The position numbers were made by a program, and so were the translations under genes. Below, piece by piece: positions 3,409 to 11,633 of a stretch of DNA of 11,633 nt; the stretch's first letter is position 1; each line of letters begins with the position of its first letter. The stretch covers positions 1 to 11,633 of the forward strand of contig JAOUNC010000047.1 of assembly GCA_029881175.1 (NCBI GenBank), in the 5' to 3' direction. The notes beneath the pieces were generated by a model. The model saw only the letters and a list, made by a program, of their open reading frames with translations, did no database searches and was not told the origin of the DNA. The stretch comes from Nitrospirota bacterium (GTDB lineage Bacteria > Nitrospirota > Nitrospiria > Nitrospirales > UBA8639).

Positions 3409-3513
3409 TTTTACGACGTTTCTCCTCATCAAAATTGCTCATCACACCAATCCATTCGTCTTTTCTTCCCGAATCCCAATTTGCATCACCGCCCTATTCC
3501 ATGTGTTGCGAAA

Positions 3514-3529
3514 TGCCACAAACGTGGCA
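3514..3529. promoter_or_regulatory. Inverted repeat TGCCAC-N4-GTGGCA upstream of the PH-domain gene
   Basis: TGCCACAAACGTGGCA has perfect 6-base arms and lies 122 bases before the likely start of the PH-domain gene, in the divergent region shared with copA. No T tract follows, so an operator is likelier than a terminator. The rest of the 3220-3650 region shows no gene I can support. Confidence 0.3.
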
Positions 3530-3650
3530 CGCTCCGGTTGTTGGTTTACGCAAAACACTAAGGAATCAATGCAAAAAGAGGATGGTACCGAATTTGTATT
3601 ACCTTAGTAGAAAGGACAATTTTGTGAACATCTACAGTTCGGAGGGAGAC

Positions 3651-4118
3651 GTGACTGATCAAGGTGAATCTGAGCGTATCCTGTGGGAAGCGTATCCCTC
3701 TTGGGGCCAGTTCAGTTGGCTGTTTTTTTTGAGTCTCTGGATAGCCTTAAGGGGACTTGTTTTTATTCGTGTCGGCGTACCTGGCTGGGAGGTTTGGATG
3801 GTTGGAGCAGGTTTTTTGCTTGTGGTGGCAGTAGGCCTTCGGTATTGGGCAAAATATGTCCTCACCTCACGGCACGTTATCATTCGGAATGGATATTCCG
3901 GCAAAACGATGAGATGTGTCAGTTACGATGTGATTGATGCAGTTGAACTCGTACAAGGGCCTTTCGCCAGGTTTTTGAGAATAGGTACTGTGGTTCTTCG
4001 TTGTCATGATTCGAATCCGACTCTGCGATTTCGTGGGGTCAAAGCTCCAGAGGTGGTCGAGACAAAGTTGCGGGCGCTTCTGCCTGCCTCTTCTCCTGTC
4101 TTTAGCTCGTCTCTTTGA
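3651..4118 (+). CDS. Membrane protein with bacterial PH-like domain
   Basis: A 155-residue protein from the GTG at 3651, chosen because GGAGG lies 5 bases upstream and because the family pattern begins right there (GESERILWEAYPSW). GTG 3624 (AGGA 7 bases upstream, nine residues longer) is an alternative; a longer TTG start at 3435 would add a tail unlike the family. Residues about 20-40 and 47-66 are two membrane helices. The segment from about 68 to 145 (YVLTSRHVIIRNGY, VSYDVIDAVELVQG, RFLRIGTVVLR) matches the small bacterial PH-like (YdbS/bPH2-type) domain: a strand pair, the I..V...QG.F.R..GIG-like turn, then a final helix. Function is unknown. It ends 48 bases before the cytochrome b-like gene, so it probably shares its transcript. 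Confidence 0.72.
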   Translation: MTDQGESERILWEAYPSWGQFSWLFFLSLWIALRGLVFIRVGVPGWEVWMVGAGFLLVVAVGLRYWAKYVLTSRHVIIRNGYSGKTMRCVSYDVIDAVELVQGPFARFLRIGTVVLRCHDSNPTLRFRGVKAPEVVETKLRALLPASSPVFSSSL

Positions 4119-6754: not shown

Positions 6755-7180
6755 ATGAAGCAAGTTCTGGTTCATGGGCAGGCTGGGGAAGAGGCTTGTA
6801 CCATTATGGTGGTGGATCAAGATAAGGCCATGAGGGCGGTTTTGGTTGATGCACTCCAGGAAAAGGGATGTCGGGTGCTGGAATCCCAGGATGGGAAGGG
6901 GGCATTGAATACACTTCGGACGGTCTCCCCACGGATTATCGTCACGGATTTGAAAATTCCTGACGGAGGCTATCCGTATTTGCGGCTTCTGAAAGCCTCA
7001 GCTCCACAGAGTTGCATTGTGGTGATAACGGCCTATGTTGATAGCCAATCCAAAGCGAAGGCGCTTGAATGTGGCGCGCAAGGATATTTTGAGAAACCCC
7101 TTCATCTGAAGGAGTTGAAAACCTGGATTTGCCAAATGTGTATGGTCAATCCATGTGGGAATATGATGGAATATTATTAA
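6755..7180 (+). CDS. Stand-alone response regulator receiver protein with Cys-rich tail
   Basis: 141 residues, a single receiver domain with no output domain. The phosphorylation site is Asp65 (IIVTDLKIPDGG), with Thr92 (VVITAY) and Lys114 (YFEKP) in their conserved places. The acidic pocket reads VVDQD (Asp21-Gln22-Asp23): the second acidic residue of the usual DD pair is Gln, which may weaken magnesium binding or change phosphorylation. The tail holds Cys126, Cys129 and Cys134 (CQMC....C), unusual for a receiver. The ATG start is kept because the first strand (TIMVVD) needs residues before Met18. AAGGA lies only 2 bases upstream, so the ribosome site is poor. The sigma-54 activator begins 39 bases downstream and lacks a receiver of its own, so the two may be halves of one NtrC-like system. 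No histidine kinase is in the window. Confidence 0.88.
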   Translation: MKQVLVHGQAGEEACTIMVVDQDKAMRAVLVDALQEKGCRVLESQDGKGALNTLRTVSPRIIVTDLKIPDGGYPYLRLLKASAPQSCIVVITAYVDSQSKAKALECGAQGYFEKPLHLKELKTWICQMCMVNPCGNMMEYY

Positions 7181-7219
7181 ATAATTAGATATTATCAGGG
7201 AAAAGGAGAAGGAGTGACG

Positions 7220-8647
7220 ATGGCCGGATCGTATGCGTCAACGGAGTCTGATGTTTCGCCGCTCGTTCATGCTCGTCTTGAGGGTTTGAAGGCGTTAGCC
7301 GAACATGTGGAGGAACCAATCCTGATTTTTAATCCACAGATGGAATTGGTCTATGTCAATCCTTCCGCAGATAAAATTGCGAAAGATTGTCCCTTAGGTT
7401 CTACGCTCACCACACGTCCTTCTCATTTAAGTGCTTCGAATCAGTCTCCTTGTGACCCCTGTACTGCGACCTATCTATTCCGGTCTAACGTTCAGGATTT
7501 AGCCACCCCCTCAGGGTCGGTGTCCTCCGTCGCTCTTCCCGAAACATGTCCAATGTTGCGGGCTGTGGCCGTCAAAGGTGAGACCGGCATCACACATTTT
7601 GCGGTACTTATGGGAGATCGTGGCAGTGAGAGTGTCGTCGTTGCTCGGAAAGAACAAGGGTTCTCAGGCCTTCCTCCTCGTCAGGAGAGGGCTGTAGGGG
7701 AGGTTCCCCAGCGGACGATTATTGGTGAGAGTGAACCCATTCAGCGGTTAAGGGAAACGATTCAATTGGTCGCGGTCAGTGAGGCCACGGTCTTGATTCA
7801 AGGGGAGAGTGGAACGGGTAAAGAATTAGTCGCAAAGACCATTCATGCGTTGAGCCATCGACGAGCCCGGCCTTTTGTGGTGGTGGAATGTAGCGCCCTA
7901 CCGGAAACCTTACTGGAAAGTGAATTATTTGGCCATATGCGGGGCGCCTTTACTGGAGCGATTGTTGATCGTAAGGGGTTGTTTGAAGAAGCTGAAGGAG
8001 GCACGATTTTTTTAGATGAGATTGCCGATACCACTCCCGGGTTTCAGGCTCGATTATTGAGGGTGTTGCAGGAGGGAGAAATTAAACCCGTTGGGAGCAA
8101 TCGCTCTATTCAAGTAGATGTCCGGGTGATTTCCGCTGGCAATCAATCCCTAGAAGAGTTGGTCAAGGCTAAGCGCTTTCGCGGTGATTTGTATTATCGC
8201 TTAGCGGTGTTGCCCTTAACCGTTCCACCCTTACGTGAGCGTCCGGAAGATATTGTGTTATTGGCCAAGCATTTCCTCGATATTTCAACCGGCCAGCATG
8301 GTCGACCGGCTTTGGCGCTTCATCCAGATGCGTTGAAGGCCTTAACGCATTATGCTTGGCCGGGGAATGTCCGGGAGTTAGGGAATCTGATTGAGCGAGC
8401 GGTGGTGACCTGTCGTCATTCCACCATTCATGTCAGTGATCTCTTTGGGTCGAAGCAATTAGAGGGTACTAAAGGTACTGACGGTGAGTTGAGGGCTGTG
8501 AGTAAAGCCGCTCGTCGAGTGGCCGAACGAGATCGTATACTTGAAGCGCTTTCCCAAACCAATGGTGATAAGACGCGGGCTGCACGCCTCCTCAAAATCA
8601 GTCGTTCTAATCTTTATAATAAATTGCGACTGTATCACATCTTGTAA
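7220..8647 (+). CDS. Sigma-54-dependent transcriptional activator (PAS, AAA+, Fis-type HTH)
   Basis: 475 residues from ATG 7220 (AAGGAG 5 bases upstream). GTG 7214 is nearly as good and adds two residues. Residues about 20-130 form a PAS-like sensor (EEPILIFNPQMELVYVNPSA) with Cys57, Cys78, Cys81 and Cys110, including CDPC, which could bind a metal or sense redox state. The AAA+ domain is complete: Walker A GESGTGKE (195-202), the sigma-54 contact loop GAFTGA (242-247), Walker B GGTIFLDE (260-267), and the arginine-finger region RFRGDLYYRL near 319-328. The C-terminus (about 436-473, TRAARLLKISRSNLYNKL) is a Fis-type helix-turn-helix that binds enhancer DNA. It lies 3' of a stand-alone receiver gene and 5' of a sigma-54 promoter serving the large oxidase, which makes that oxidase the likely target. 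Confidence 0.95.
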   Translation: MAGSYASTESDVSPLVHARLEGLKALAEHVEEPILIFNPQMELVYVNPSADKIAKDCPLGSTLTTRPSHLSASNQSPCDPCTATYLFRSNVQDLATPSGSVSSVALPETCPMLRAVAVKGETGITHFAVLMGDRGSESVVVARKEQGFSGLPPRQERAVGEVPQRTIIGESEPIQRLRETIQLVAVSEATVLIQGESGTGKELVAKTIHALSHRRARPFVVVECSALPETLLESELFGHMRGAFTGAIVDRKGLFEEAEGGTIFLDEIADTTPGFQARLLRVLQEGEIKPVGSNRSIQVDVRVISAGNQSLEELVKAKRFRGDLYYRLAVLPLTVPPLRERPEDIVLLAKHFLDISTGQHGRPALALHPDALKALTHYAWPGNVRELGNLIERAVVTCRHSTIHVSDLFGSKQLEGTKGTDGELRAVSKAARRVAERDRILEALSQTNGDKTRAARLLKISRSNLYNKLRLYHIL

Positions 8648-8693
8648 TTTTCAACGATCCTGTCCCTATTCTCCCCATTGCCGCCTATTTTGT

Positions 8694-8709
8694 GTCCAAA
8701 AAATTGGAC
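8694..8709. promoter_or_regulatory. Perfect dyad, candidate enhancer site (or weak terminator)
   Basis: GTCCAA-AAAA-TTGGAC has 6-base perfect arms, extendable to 7 of 8. It lies about 200 bases before the expected start of the sigma-54 transcript, a normal place for an activator enhancer. It is also 46 bases after the activator's stop and could be a hairpin, but no T tract follows on either strand, so an operator is favoured. Confidence 0.4.
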
Positions 8710-8759
8710 GCGTAACTTGTTGATTTATTGGATAGCGCAACTTTGTGTGGGTTCTTCTG

Positions 8760-8782
8760 TCCAGAACCGCAGAATTTCTGGA
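8760..8782. promoter_or_regulatory. Second dyad, candidate enhancer site
   Basis: TCCAGAA-N9-TTCTGGA has perfect 7-base arms and contains a tighter nested palindrome CAGAA-T-TTCTG (8770-8780). It lies about 130 bases upstream of the expected sigma-54 start. It shares TCCA...TGGA with the first dyad but with different spacing, so a common binding protein is not certain. Confidence 0.4.
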
Positions 8783-8874
8783 TGTCGTGATCCATTAAAA
8801 AACTCGATGGTATCTGCCCCATTACCTGCATGAATAGGTCCTGTTCCTCTTTCTTGCTCCAGATGCTACATTCC

Positions 8875-8890
8875 TGGCACTTATGTTGCT
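8875..8890 (+). promoter_or_regulatory. Sigma-54 (-24/-12) promoter for the large multicopper oxidase
   Basis: TGGCAC-TTATG-TTGCT fits the sigma-54 consensus TGGCAC-N5-TTGC(A/T), with GG and GC exactly 10 bases apart. The strand is that of the oxidase gene, and the expected transcript start is near 8900, giving a leader of about 200 bases. A complete sigma-54 activator is encoded directly upstream, which strongly raises the prior for a true site. Confidence 0.8.
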
Positions 8891-8901
8891 TTGATTTCTG
8901 T

Positions 8902-8977
8902 TGCCGACATTGGGTGGGGTGTGATGGACCGGCCTCCGGAATGCCCGACCTCCGAAAGAGGATACCTAATGTCGGCA
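8902..8977 (+). promoter_or_regulatory. Long inverted repeat / stem-loop at the 5' end of the oxidase leader
   Basis: TGCCGACATT (8902-8911) and AATGTCGGCA (8968-8977) are perfect 10-base inverted repeats. The stem continues inward with GU-GC-GC-UA-GU to 15 pairs (8902-8916 with 8963-8977). The loop is GC-rich with CCTCCG twice (8933-8938, 8949-8954). It begins within a few bases of the expected sigma-54 transcript start, so the messenger would open with this structure. A small mobile or palindromic repeat is the other reading. Confidence 0.55.
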
Positions 8978-9025
8978 CTCAACCTTGATGGTATGTGAGT
9001 GAGTCAGTTCAGAAAAATCGAAAAT

Positions 9026-9067
9026 GATCTGATGGAACAGATTGTTGCTGTCAATTTTGTTTTTTTA
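9026..9067 (+). other. Leader hairpin followed by U-rich tract
   Basis: ATCTG-ATGGAA-CAGAT (9026-9041) is a small hairpin and 9055-9067 is nearly all T, about 20-35 bases before the oxidase ribosome binding site. The gap between hairpin and T tract (13 bases) is long for a terminator. It could be a weak attenuator or just an unstructured ribosome standby region. Confidence 0.2.
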
Positions 9068-9101
9068 TTCACCAAACGCCTTAACTAAAGGAGTCCGGAG
9101 C

Positions 9102-11633
9102 ATGTATCACCGCCAACCGACTTTATTCACGGTTTCGGCGTTCTTGGCGCTATTTGGGGGAGCCACTATTGTGGGAACTCCCTCTGTTGGTAGCGCGGAG
9201 AATGCTTCCTCAGAGCATGCCCATCAAATGGGCATGAATTCCCAATCACCTGGCTGGGCCGAAAAGCTCAAGGGCCAGACGATTGTGGAAGATGCGATGG
9301 AGGGTCGCGCCGAACGGGCGGCACTCGTCGAGCAGCAGCATCAACGGATGATGCAGCAAATGCAGAAAGAAGCTGACCACAGAGGGGCTGACACGGGTGC
9401 GTTTAACTCCATGTCGATGATTCATCAATATGGCGCAGGACCCGGCAATGGTTTGCTGGCCAGTCCTTCCGGTGTGGAACCCGTTTCGATGAAAGGGGGC
9501 TTGTGTCCTAAGACGGCCCCGGTTCGAAATTACGATATATCCGCCATTAATGTGGAAATCAGCTTGAATCAATGGCTGGATTATTATCCAGGGTACATGT
9601 ACGCCTTGACTGAAGACATTGACAAAATTCGTGAAGAAGAAGAAAAAAATCGCGAGGCTCGGGAAAAAGAGGGCCATCATGATGCAGGGGGCGTGAAAAA
9701 CGGGATCCAAGACCAGTGGATTCAACCCTTGGTGATTCGTGGCAATCAAGGCGACTGTGTCAAAATTACGCTGAACAATAAGTTAGAGTTCGGTGAAGAA
9801 GTCAGTTTGCATATTAATGGTTCGGATATGGTCATGAGTGATAGTGGCACGCCAGCTACAACGACCAATCCAGCCACCGTGGCCGCAGAAGGCCAAAGCG
9901 TCAGTATGGAATGGTATATCCATCCAGAGACGCAAGAAGGTGGAAAGCAATTTCATACGTTTAGTAATGATCGGGAACTGACGGTCATGGGGATGTTCGG
10001 GGTGTTCGTCGTCGAGCCCAAAGGGTCGAATTACTTTGAACCCTTAGGAACGGGACCAGCCACGGAAGCCCGGAGCGGCTGGCAGGTTATGATTGATAAT
10101 GGGGACGGTCCGGATTTCCGTGAATTTGTCCTGATTTATCATGAAGTCGGTGACGAAGCCTTTCGTCCCGTCAATAAACATGGGGATTTCTTACCCCAAC
10201 GGGATCCGTTAACGGATGCGTATCGCCCAGGTGCCCGGGCGCTCAACTATCGCAGTGAGCCGTTCGGCATCAATAACATGCATGTGCAACATGAATATTT
10301 TGGATTTGAAGATGAGTCGATGGCCTATAGCTCCTATACCTTTGGGGATGCGGCCCCGACTATTCCTCGGAGTTATTTAGGTGATCCTGCCAAATTCCGT
10401 GTGGTGCATGGTGGATCGGAAGTGTTCCATTCCCATCATCCACATGGGGGATCCATCCGTTGGCAACGCAGTCCTCGGGCTACGCAAATGCCCGTGTGGA
10501 ACACGGGTCAAAGTGGGCCAGTGAAATACCCGGTCATTCGTACTAAATCTGATCGGGTGGATGTGGAGGTCATCGGGCCATCAGAGGCGTTGGATTTAGA
10601 AACAGAATGTGGCTCAGGTTTGTGCCAATGGTTAGCGGGAGATTTTCTCTTCCATTGCCATGTGGCGCATCACTATGTAGCCGGGATGTGGGGCTACTGG
10701 CGGGTGTATAACACCATGCAAGAGCCTGGTGTCCAAAATGACGTCATGGCGCCGTTACGCGAGTTGCCTGACCGATTGGGTCGAATTCACAAACCGGTGA
10801 CCTCTGATCAATTGGTCGGGAAGACCGTCAATTGGTTTGGCAAGCAATTCAAGATTGTGGGTGAAGGCAAGAGCAATTGGAAAGCCGAACCTGCCGTTGT
10901 CAATATTAAAGATTGGGTCGAAATGCAGTTAGCCAATCAAGGCAAGCCTGGTCATACGGATGATGAAAAAGGGCAGATGATGGCCTATGATGCCACCGTC
11001 ATGGACTGGGTCTGGCAGGGCAATAAGGCCATGAGTGAGAAGGAAGCCACGTTAGGGGAGAACCCCAAGTATCGTCCGGAGTTGTTGGGATATAAGGCGG
11101 GCGAACGGCATGGCATTTTGTTTGAACCCACGACGGGAAAAGTGGCGTGGCCTTGGTTGACGCCACATTTTGGTAAGCGAGTTCCGTTCTCGAATGATCA
11201 TAACCCAGCCCCCTGGCTGGAAATGATTCGATTGAATCCCGATGGGACACGGTCGGTTGGACCCGCCAAGCCGGGAGAAAATGGTCCGTGGAGTTTGTGC
11301 CCGGATCGAGCCGGTTCGCAGGATTACAAAATCCATTTCATTAAGTTACCGATTGAATTATCGGCAGCCGAAGGCAGTGAGCCGGCTATTGTCGACCCCA
11401 ACGGGTTGTTGTATGTGGTGCAGGAAGAAGAGGCAGCGGTTCGAGCGGACAACAACAAGAAGTTTCCGTTGGTCGTCCGGGCTAATGTGTATGATTGCAT
11501 CGATTGGACACTCACCAGCGAGTGGATTGATGATGATATCACGAACTTCCAATCGTCCAAGATCAACACGCATTTCCATTTCTTTCAATTTGACAACCAA
11601 GCATCGGACGGGGTGATTTCAGGCTTCTCGTAC
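9102..11633 (+). CDS. Large secreted multicopper oxidase, partial (3' end outside the window)
   Basis: Open for 844 codons to the window end. ATG 9102 has AAAGGAG (9087-9093) 8 bases upstream. Residues 1-32 form a Sec-type signal peptide, cleavage probably after VGSA. A Gln/Met-rich coiled segment (about 73-92) and a Glu/Lys-rich one (about 172-193) precede the cupredoxin folds. The first expected copper sites are altered: HING at 237 replaces HWHG, and HTFSND at 285 replaces the H.H....G motif before GMFGVFVVEP. A full ligand set follows: HSHHPHGG (443-450, H..H.HG pattern) and H518-C519-H520 with H524 and Met529 (LFHCHVAHHYVAGM). Another HFHFFQFDNQASDG motif appears at 824, so at least one more copper domain continues outside. 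Size and order exceed CopA or laccase (450-620 residues) and recall large multi-cupredoxin oxidases such as the manganese oxidase MnxG; that link is from memory. Substrate unknown. Confidence 0.88.
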   Translation, partial: MYHRQPTLFTVSAFLALFGGATIVGTPSVGSAENASSEHAHQMGMNSQSPGWAEKLKGQTIVEDAMEGRAERAALVEQQHQRMMQQMQKEADHRGADTGAFNSMSMIHQYGAGPGNGLLASPSGVEPVSMKGGLCPKTAPVRNYDISAINVEISLNQWLDYYPGYMYALTEDIDKIREEEEKNREAREKEGHHDAGGVKNGIQDQWIQPLVIRGNQGDCVKITLNNKLEFGEEVSLHINGSDMVMSDSGTPATTTNPATVAAEGQSVSMEWYIHPETQEGGKQFHTFSNDRELTVMGMFGVFVVEPKGSNYFEPLGTGPATEARSGWQVMIDNGDGPDFREFVLIYHEVGDEAFRPVNKHGDFLPQRDPLTDAYRPGARALNYRSEPFGINNMHVQHEYFGFEDESMAYSSYTFGDAAPTIPRSYLGDPAKFRVVHGGSEVFHSHHPHGGSIRWQRSPRATQMPVWNTGQSGPVKYPVIRTKSDRVDVEVIGPSEALDLETECGSGLCQWLAGDFLFHCHVAHHYVAGMWGYWRVYNTMQEPGVQNDVMAPLRELPDRLGRIHKPVTSDQLVGKTVNWFGKQFKIVGEGKSNWKAEPAVVNIKDWVEMQLANQGKPGHTDDEKGQMMAYDATVMDWVWQGNKAMSEKEATLGENPKYRPELLGYKAGERHGILFEPTTGKVAWPWLTPHFGKRVPFSNDHNPAPWLEMIRLNPDGTRSVGPAKPGENGPWSLCPDRAGSQDYKIHFIKLPIELSAAEGSEPAIVDPNGLLYVVQEEEAAVRADNNKKFPLVVRANVYDCIDWTLTSEWIDDDITNFQSSKINTHFHFFQFDNQASDGVISGFSY

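Follow-up and report, generated by a model that had tools for sequence, protein, structure and literature searches.

A predicted leader RNA downstream of a sigma-54 promoter in Nitrospirales, with a loop complementary to the ribosome-binding sites of giant multicopper oxidases

Background

The Qrr RNAs of vibrios are separate, Hfq-dependent small RNAs, driven by LuxO and sigma-54, which pair with ribosome-binding regions. According to the cited sections, the SreA S-adenosylmethionine (SAM) riboswitch of Listeria is the leader of an mRNA with a cis function and a second one in trans, where it base-pairs with another message and thereby affects its translation (PMC8079631). As for the enzymes, sigma-54/IHF promoters have been predicted for mnxG and mcoA of Pseudomonas putida GB-1, with Mn dependence shown by promoter fusions (PMC11930936), and in Myxococcus xanthus the sigma-54-type response regulator CorR is encoded beside the multicopper oxidase CuoA (PMC3707914). 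Here we analysed contig JAOUNC010000047.1 of a Nitrospirota bacterium of the order Nitrospirales (the window, an entire contig of 11,633 bases; C187 in a source genome of 3.07 Mb, 82% complete, 509 contigs), where genes for a lone receiver, a sigma-54 activator and a giant multicopper oxidase follow one another. Between a conserved -24/-12 promoter and the oxidase gene lies a predicted structured leader RNA, and we propose, with a probability of about 0.62, that this activator-induced leader regulates translation by pairing of its loop with ribosome-binding sites (RBSs), in cis and probably in trans.

The proposed circuit resembles that of Qrr in that a sigma-54 activator would drive an RNA pairing with ribosome-binding regions, and differs in that the element is not a separate small RNA but the 5' end of the oxidase message. 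With P. putida GB-1 it shares large multicopper oxidases, predicted sigma-54 control, a proposed dedicated regulatory system and two oxidases per cell, whereas the cited sections of that report mention no leader RNA and the window has a receiver and a PAS-like activator beside the gene (PMC11930936). In the CorSR-CuoA system a sigma-54-type regulator gene likewise adjoins a multicopper oxidase gene, but CorR has its own receiver, the operon is one of copper tolerance, and again no leader RNA is mentioned in the cited sections (PMC3707914). The first-pass annotation of the window had regarded sigma-54 control of a multicopper oxidase as an unfamiliar circuit; as far as the cited sections go, it is already in print (PMC11930936, PMC3707914). 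SreA, in turn, pairs about 80 nucleotides (nt) upstream of the Shine-Dalgarno (SD) sequence of its target and is released by a terminator (PMC8079631), whereas the loop described here matches the SD and start codon themselves and a U-rich tract follows P1, the basal stem, in 21 of 75 leaders. What goes beyond the first-pass annotation is the predicted leader RNA, its complementarity to RBSs and a second oxidase gene. In the open-access literature searched, no account of the regulation of giant Nitrospirales oxidases was found, nor any description of the leader element in the part on Nitrospira regulation and structured RNAs. Two papers on RNA discovery do not name Nitrospira anywhere in their main text.

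Results

In an alignment of the upstream regions, the strongest conservation falls on a block that begins at the predicted transcription start, above that of the promoter and the enhancer-like dyad. In the window this block is a predicted structured leader of about 82 nt (8900-8981, forward strand; match of leader models R1 and R2), in which P1 joins 8902-8915 (TGCCGACATTGGG) to 8964-8977 (CCTAATGTCGGCA) and encloses a P2 hairpin and a variable P3. Its fold has an energy of -39.9 kcal/mol (z -5.0), and it scores E 5.5e-20 with R1 and E 6.8e-16 with R2, the window being among the sequences used for building both models. In 47 sequences including the window, 96.7% of the cells were paired. Sliding the pairing by 1-3 columns left 35-57% paired, and changes on both sides were seen in 14 of 20 pairs (8 of the 8 pairs counted in P1). 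In another set, of 30 distinct rows with one antisense match among them, 89.7% of cells were paired, 36-55% when slid and 86.3% in shuffles, with 9 of 24 pairs changed on both sides; these values come from an alignment fitted to the model, and the shuffle controls leave relatedness in place.

No match at gathering score was given by Rfam across the whole window. A stretch of 481 bases gave three weak snoRNA matches below gathering score (E 1.5-7.4) and 20 relatives gave no match at E<=1, and a known Rfam family was rejected for the leader on these grounds. A conserved, covarying 5' leader fold tied to one gene family, which is one of the marks of a riboswitch, is what the alignments point to, and the leader appears to be a previously uncatalogued structured RNA of the order, to which Nitrospira moscoviensis also belongs. 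Within the order, R2 has matches in 182 of 235 genomes and 27 of 37 genera, while in a sample of the phylum the leader was found in 113 of 395 genomes, every match inside the order; searches spanning more than 40 genomes used stricter filters, by which weak matches are lost. Judged by eye, 43 of 46 leader matches lie within about 500 nt 5' of an oxidase match, and of the three exceptions, two sit at the edge of contig G040:C112 and the third, in G058:C15, is doubtful. At that contig edge, L076 (G040:C112:144-321) carries two tandem leader-like copies with invariant core, about 100 nt apart.

The counts below refer to 75 leader regions collected across the order, that of the window among them (45 gathered in the first rounds, 30 later), leaving out two doubtful regions (L083, L084), a second copy of L081 (L209) and antisense-strand matches in L051, L058 and L233. 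The set includes near-identical relatives, so the sites are not independent. The apical core GGACCGGCCUCC (8926-8937, forward strand), whose loop CCGGCC (8929-8934) is closed by GGA/UCC, is exact in 72 of the 75 leaders while the surrounding stems vary. It is complementary to the extended SD of oxidase start regions, and we propose it as an anti-RBS element. Three types of oxidase gene were distinguished: type 1 bears the leader, type 2 is a sister gene with the RBS motif, and type 3 is a leader-less paralogue.

For type 1, GGAGGCCG is present in the RBS of the leader's own oxidase in 55 of the 73 cases that could be assigned (two leaders, both L076 at the contig edge, have no assignable start); this RBS lies 54-303 nt downstream (median 139). 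The core duplex is predicted at -17.2 kcal/mol or stronger at 36 of 43 leader-bearing starts; start codons were chosen automatically and are wrong or uncertain in several loci of genus g12. The proposed cis target in the window is AAAGGAGTCCGGAGCATG, the oxidase RBS and start (9087-9104, forward strand; SD AAAGGAG), with one U:C mismatch to the core.

The type-2 start of the source genome (C449:800-816) reads AAGGAGGCCGGUCCAUG, a perfect complement of the core over 12-14 nt (-29.2 kcal/mol), with no leader core within 600 nt upstream and no cis partner in its locus. Among 30 sister starts, 28 pair at -29.2 and two at -25.6 kcal/mol, compared with -8.8 to -24.2 kcal/mol for own starts. The type-2 conservation profile was drawn from 30 rows that had been chosen for having the motif. 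Within the order, 101 of 235 genomes contain an exact copy of this 17-mer, usually just one, and the reversed control gave 0. Matches to AGGAGGCCGG+ATG are confined to oxidases in 6 of 12 genomes searched (G018, G010, G013, G031, G023, G053), and G088 and G094 have one match each with location unassigned. Among 489 start regions from 80 named loci, the 34 strongest core duplexes are all at oxidase starts, as assigned by position, and unrelated starts first appear at rank 35. The full motif is missing from 21 leader-less starts; five type-3 paralogues picked from among them (L170, L172, L173, L178, L184) show ordinary SDs that pair at -9.5 to -12.4 kcal/mol and have no GCCGG extension. A conserved complementarity of 12-14 nt to a target start region, as is expected of a trans base-pairing RNA, is indicated by these comparisons.

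Upstream of the leader, a -24/-12 promoter of the form TGGCAC-N5-TTGCT (TGGCACTTATGTTGCT; 8875-8890, forward strand) is predicted from its consensus match and conservation. It sets +1 at 8901, in agreement with the transcript start near 8900 that the first-pass annotation had expected. It is the sole exact sigma-54 consensus match in the window; genome-wide there are 8 such matches and 3 for the reversed pattern, therefore the motif by itself is weak evidence and its conservation is what convinces. Scored with TGGCAY-N5-TTGCW at a cut-off of 9 of 11 consensus positions, the site precedes the RNA stem in 68 of 75 leader regions, with 13 nt (17 cases), 14 nt (44) or 15 nt (7) from C(-12) to the first base of P1. 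The seven regions below the cut-off are L069, L076 (twice), L077, L078, L080 and L235, of which L069 and L235 read AGGCAY-N5-CTGCG at the usual spacing. A search of 8600-9120 gave neither an intrinsic terminator nor, on either strand, a sigma-70-like site.

A probable activator binding site is the enhancer-like dyad TGTCCA-N6-TGGACG (8693-8710, no strand assigned), which has a conserved position and sequence and within which GTCCAA-N4-TTGGAC is nested with perfect 6-nt arms. The best match to YGTCYA-N6-TRGACR, a consensus derived from the same sequences that it scored with position left free, lies 175-197 nt before -24 in 68 of 68 sites and within 177-184 nt in 64 of them, scoring 12 of 12 in 59, 11 in 8 and 10 in one. 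In shuffled controls (one per region), 0 of 68 fell within 177-184 nt and 8 of 68 scored 10 or 11 of 12. An earlier non-degenerate scoring (TGTCCA/TGGAC), counted by eye, had put the best match within 177-184 nt of the -24 element in 59 of 68 regions; its scores were often approached by shuffles, and the degenerate consensus was adopted afterwards. The second dyad, TCCAGAA-N9-TTCTGGA (feature 8758-8782, no strand assigned; the repeat itself at 8760-8782), came from an inverted-repeat search and the alignment of relatives, and it stands at the place of a second TGTCCA-type site of some relatives, degenerate in the window. Both had been annotated as perfect dyads, and the arms of both are indeed perfect, but only the first is at a position conserved in relatives. 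From the above, a GG-N10-GC promoter of the form TGGCAC-N5-TTGCW, an upstream enhancer-like site and conservation in orthologues come together here, and their conservation argues that the predicted sigma-54 circuit is real. A lack of conserved -24/-12 sites before orthologous oxidases had been named beforehand as the finding that would speak against this circuit; the site was present in 68 of 75 regions, and each of the 68 has the enhancer-like dyad.

The activator (7214-8647, forward strand; 477 amino acids), identified from Pfam, motifs and fold, consists of a PAS-like sensor, an AAA+ domain with GAFTGA and a Fis-type helix-turn-helix (HTH). It matches Sigma54_activat (E 1.5e-67), the AAA lid and HTH_8, with Walker A at residue 197, GAFTGA at 244 and Walker B at 262, and is an activator of the NtrC/NifA type. 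Its N-terminus matches Pfam PAS families only below threshold (PAS_8 with E 0.074 and 13.4 bits, where the cut-off is 21.8), and the best fold matches of its predicted structure, a low-confidence one (mean pLDDT 57.5), are PAS domains. In this sensor (7214-7720), Cys59, Cys80, Cys83 and Cys112 are invariant in 15 of 15 aligned sequences, which suggests a metal- or redox-binding PAS-like domain. Because of these four cysteines and the neighbouring CopA/CopB copper genes and multihaem cytochrome, a metal or redox cue is a plausible inducer. Near the start of the open frame 3435-4118, divergent from copA, there is also a palindrome-like TGCCACAAACGTGGCA (3514-3529).

Immediately 5' of the activator is a stand-alone receiver-domain protein of 141 amino acids (6755-7180, forward strand; Pfam Response_reg E 5.7e-20), with the Asp in VTDLKIPD, the Thr in VVITAY and the Lys in FEKP present and D-Q-D as its acidic pair. 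Receiver, GAFTGA activator, dyads, promoter and oxidase thus stand in the order and at the places given by the first-pass annotation, and the synteny of receiver, activator, promoter and oxidase recurs in relatives. Of the named leader loci, 13 have DNA reaching past the activator start, and in all 13 the receiver directly precedes the activator. The activator lies 5' of the leader in 17 of 21 named leader loci, with a gap of about 1.7 kb in some genomes; two of the other four (L100, L163) have less than 1.6 kb of upstream DNA. In Nitrospiraceae, the activator orthologue adjoins the leader in G037, G053, G055, G057 and G058, and is on a separate contig in G043, G046, G049 and G051.

The oxidase gene (9102-11633, forward strand) is cut by the contig end and encodes a giant MnxG-like multicopper oxidase (Cu-oxidase_3 E 2e-5; PDB 9bxa MnxG E 2.7e-55). 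At residue 518 it has HCHVAHHYVAGM, which we take to be the multicopper oxidase copper signature HCHxxxHxxxGM, together with the cupredoxin domain match. Against the MnxG equivalog NF041487 of NCBIfam (cut-off 3100 bits), the window fragment of 844 residues scores 50.7 bits and the full L089 orthologue of 1,627 amino acids scores 131.7 bits. The equivalog was rejected, and because of these scores and the relation to PDB 9bxa we classify the protein as MnxG-like, not MnxG. Complete relatives have open frames of mostly 1,610-1,770 codons, oxidase homologues occur in 57 of 59 genomes searched (that of the window included), many with several matches, and the closest oxidases among named records belong mostly to uncultured Nitrospirales.

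In a protein tree of 91 pieces, type-1 and type-2 proteins of the window genus intermix while their start regions stay distinct; the coding parts apparently undergo gene conversion and the regulatory parts are kept apart. For example, type-1 and type-2 oxidases from a single genome or from near relatives, such as L093/L121 and L099/L107, can group together despite differing 5' regions. A leader-bearing oxidase and a type-2 start lie 6-9 kb apart on the same strand in L163, G046:C10, G120:C15 and G122:C31 (Nitrospiraceae). An Opitutales (L091) and a Nitrosomonas (L101) metagenome-assembled genome carry a Nitrospirales oxidase with leader at 89% and 83% identity, which is probably mis-binning.

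Discussion

Promoter and leader RNA are well supported by conservation, and the pairing between loop and RBS is likely. We propose that the PAS-type sigma-54 activator and its partner receiver bind the dyad about 180 bp upstream and fire the -24/-12 promoter. The transcript would open with the folded leader, P1 starting from about +1 and the closed loop CCGGCC being displayed. This loop would pair with GGAGGCCGG-type RBSs, namely the one in its own oxidase message and, by a stronger duplex of 12-14 bp, that of the sister message at AAGGAGGCCGGUCCAUG. Such pairing would hide the SD and lower translation, and the leader fold may gate it. A more specific version is an isozyme switch, in which the 5' end of the induced message would shut sister oxidase translation in trans by a kissing loop with SD and start codon, and weaker cis pairing would cap its own synthesis; we put this forward tentatively, as less likely than not.

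Several observations weigh against this proposal. Seven of the 43 leader-bearing starts pair weakly, down to -8.8 kcal/mol, though some of these starts are uncertain, and the cis site of the window itself, GGAGUCCGG, reaches only -14.3 kcal/mol with its U:C mismatch, as does that of G012, while most other leader-bearing genes of the genus are at -20.7 to -21.7 kcal/mol. Nested co-folding gave a net of only -4.2 kcal/mol for trans and of -2.0 and -1.5 kcal/mol for two cis cases, by a method that is blind to kissing loops. Further unplaced AGGAGGCCGG+ATG matches exist in G008, G037, G046 and G058. Pairing is mixed among the 21 leader-less starts that lack the full motif (-6.9 to -27.0 kcal/mol): apart from the five type-3 paralogues, 16 are type-2 variants, which pair well, and g4, f2 and others, with g4 and f2 at -10.6 to -23.0 kcal/mol. 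In L101 and L110, upstream DNA of more than 3 kb contains no activator match of 200 amino acids, alignments A3 and A4 were fitted to the structure of the model, and since the U-rich tract is present in just 21 of 75 leaders, release of a small RNA is not general. Compensatory changes between core and RBS were not found, the genus that lost the leader (g4) included, and a compensatory core was likewise sought without success among the g4 loci examined.

As for trans action, leader and exact 17-mer occur together in 88 of 235 genomes, with leader only in 94, motif only in 13 and neither in 40 (Fisher p 0.0025, a weak association uncorrected for phylogeny). The 13 motif-only genomes also count against it. 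In seven of them (G020, G026, G028, G071, G075, G195, G213) no other source of the core was found and the sole 12-mer is the RBS, therefore trans pairing is not the sole cause of motif conservation. Extra 12-mers occur in the other six (G015, G035, G062, G082, G100, G176), with a core copy at a contig edge in G015 and G100, and the motif-only genomes G020, G026 and G035 are at least 97% complete. In genus g12 the leader is found in 73 of 79 genomes, the exact 17-mer in 19 and both in 18, a pattern of kept leader and mostly missing 17-mer that favours a cis role there. In favour of trans action are the better and more conserved sister site, its lack of a cis partner, and the loss of the leader in g4 together with decay of the site, where GGAGGCGGTTCC stands at 7 of the 10 type-2 starts included in the tree. 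Seven type-1 upstream regions of g4 keep a -24/-12-like AGGCAYCATYCTTGCR site. The leader-less type-1 oxidases of g4 (L102-L106, L108, L112) in several cases follow an apparent histidine kinase end, i.e. a re-wired circuit.

A ligand- or metal-sensing riboswitch acting in cis only, whose P1/P2/P3 bind the ligand and whose loop masks its own SD, the sister match being inherited from an ancestral start region, would agree with the position of the leader at the 5' end of oxidase messages (43 of 46 matches), with the 94 of 182 leader genomes that lack the exact 17-mer, a figure that also tells against trans pairing, and with the paralogy of type-1 and type-2 genes and their intermixed coding parts. 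We regard it as unlikely: there is free variation in P1 and P3 and, outside the core, conservation of only a few unpaired bases (47 sequences, by eye), unlike a typical aptamer, the sister start matches better (-29.2/-25.6 against -8.8 to -24.2 kcal/mol), and its flanks are unconserved while the motif is conserved in the 30 motif-selected rows. Little credence is given to the leader as a mere 5' stabilising hairpin, with RBS complementarity a by-product of a GC-rich extended SD. The 12-nt apical core, exact in 72 of 75 leaders despite changing stems, would be needless for stability, and the type-3 paralogues that lack the leader also lack the GCCGG extension, even if P1, as in stabilising 5' hairpins, begins at the predicted 5' end of 68 of the 75 leaders and some genomes keep the RBS motif with no leader match.

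Two further alternatives are very improbable. Control by a leader peptide, from a frame starting AUGGACCGGCCUCCGGAAUGC, is largely refuted by the start codon, which is present in 29 of 75 leaders, with frames of 10 to 53 codons, and missing in 46. P1 could also be read as a DNA operator of some regulator, being a 14-nt inverted repeat near the promoter, but its arms are 48 nt apart and differ between families, with both-side changes in 8 of 8 pairs counted. Translational regulation by loop-RBS pairing, in cis and in trans together, is in our view the best single account of these sequences.

Conclusions

Nitrospirales comprise nitrite oxidisers and comammox bacteria, and many of their genomes have several giant MnxG-like oxidases. 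A promoter, an enhancer-like dyad, a covarying leader and a target site at near-fixed spacing make up a circuit that is directly testable. If the isozyme switch is true, Nitrospirales would have in this leader a new class of structured RNA, one linking sigma-54 transcription to the translational exchange of closely related enzymes. If pairing in trans is real, a protein-coding message would regulate its own paralogue as an antisense RNA, a rare arrangement; if the action is in cis only, the element would still be an uncatalogued class of leader RNA for metal oxidases.

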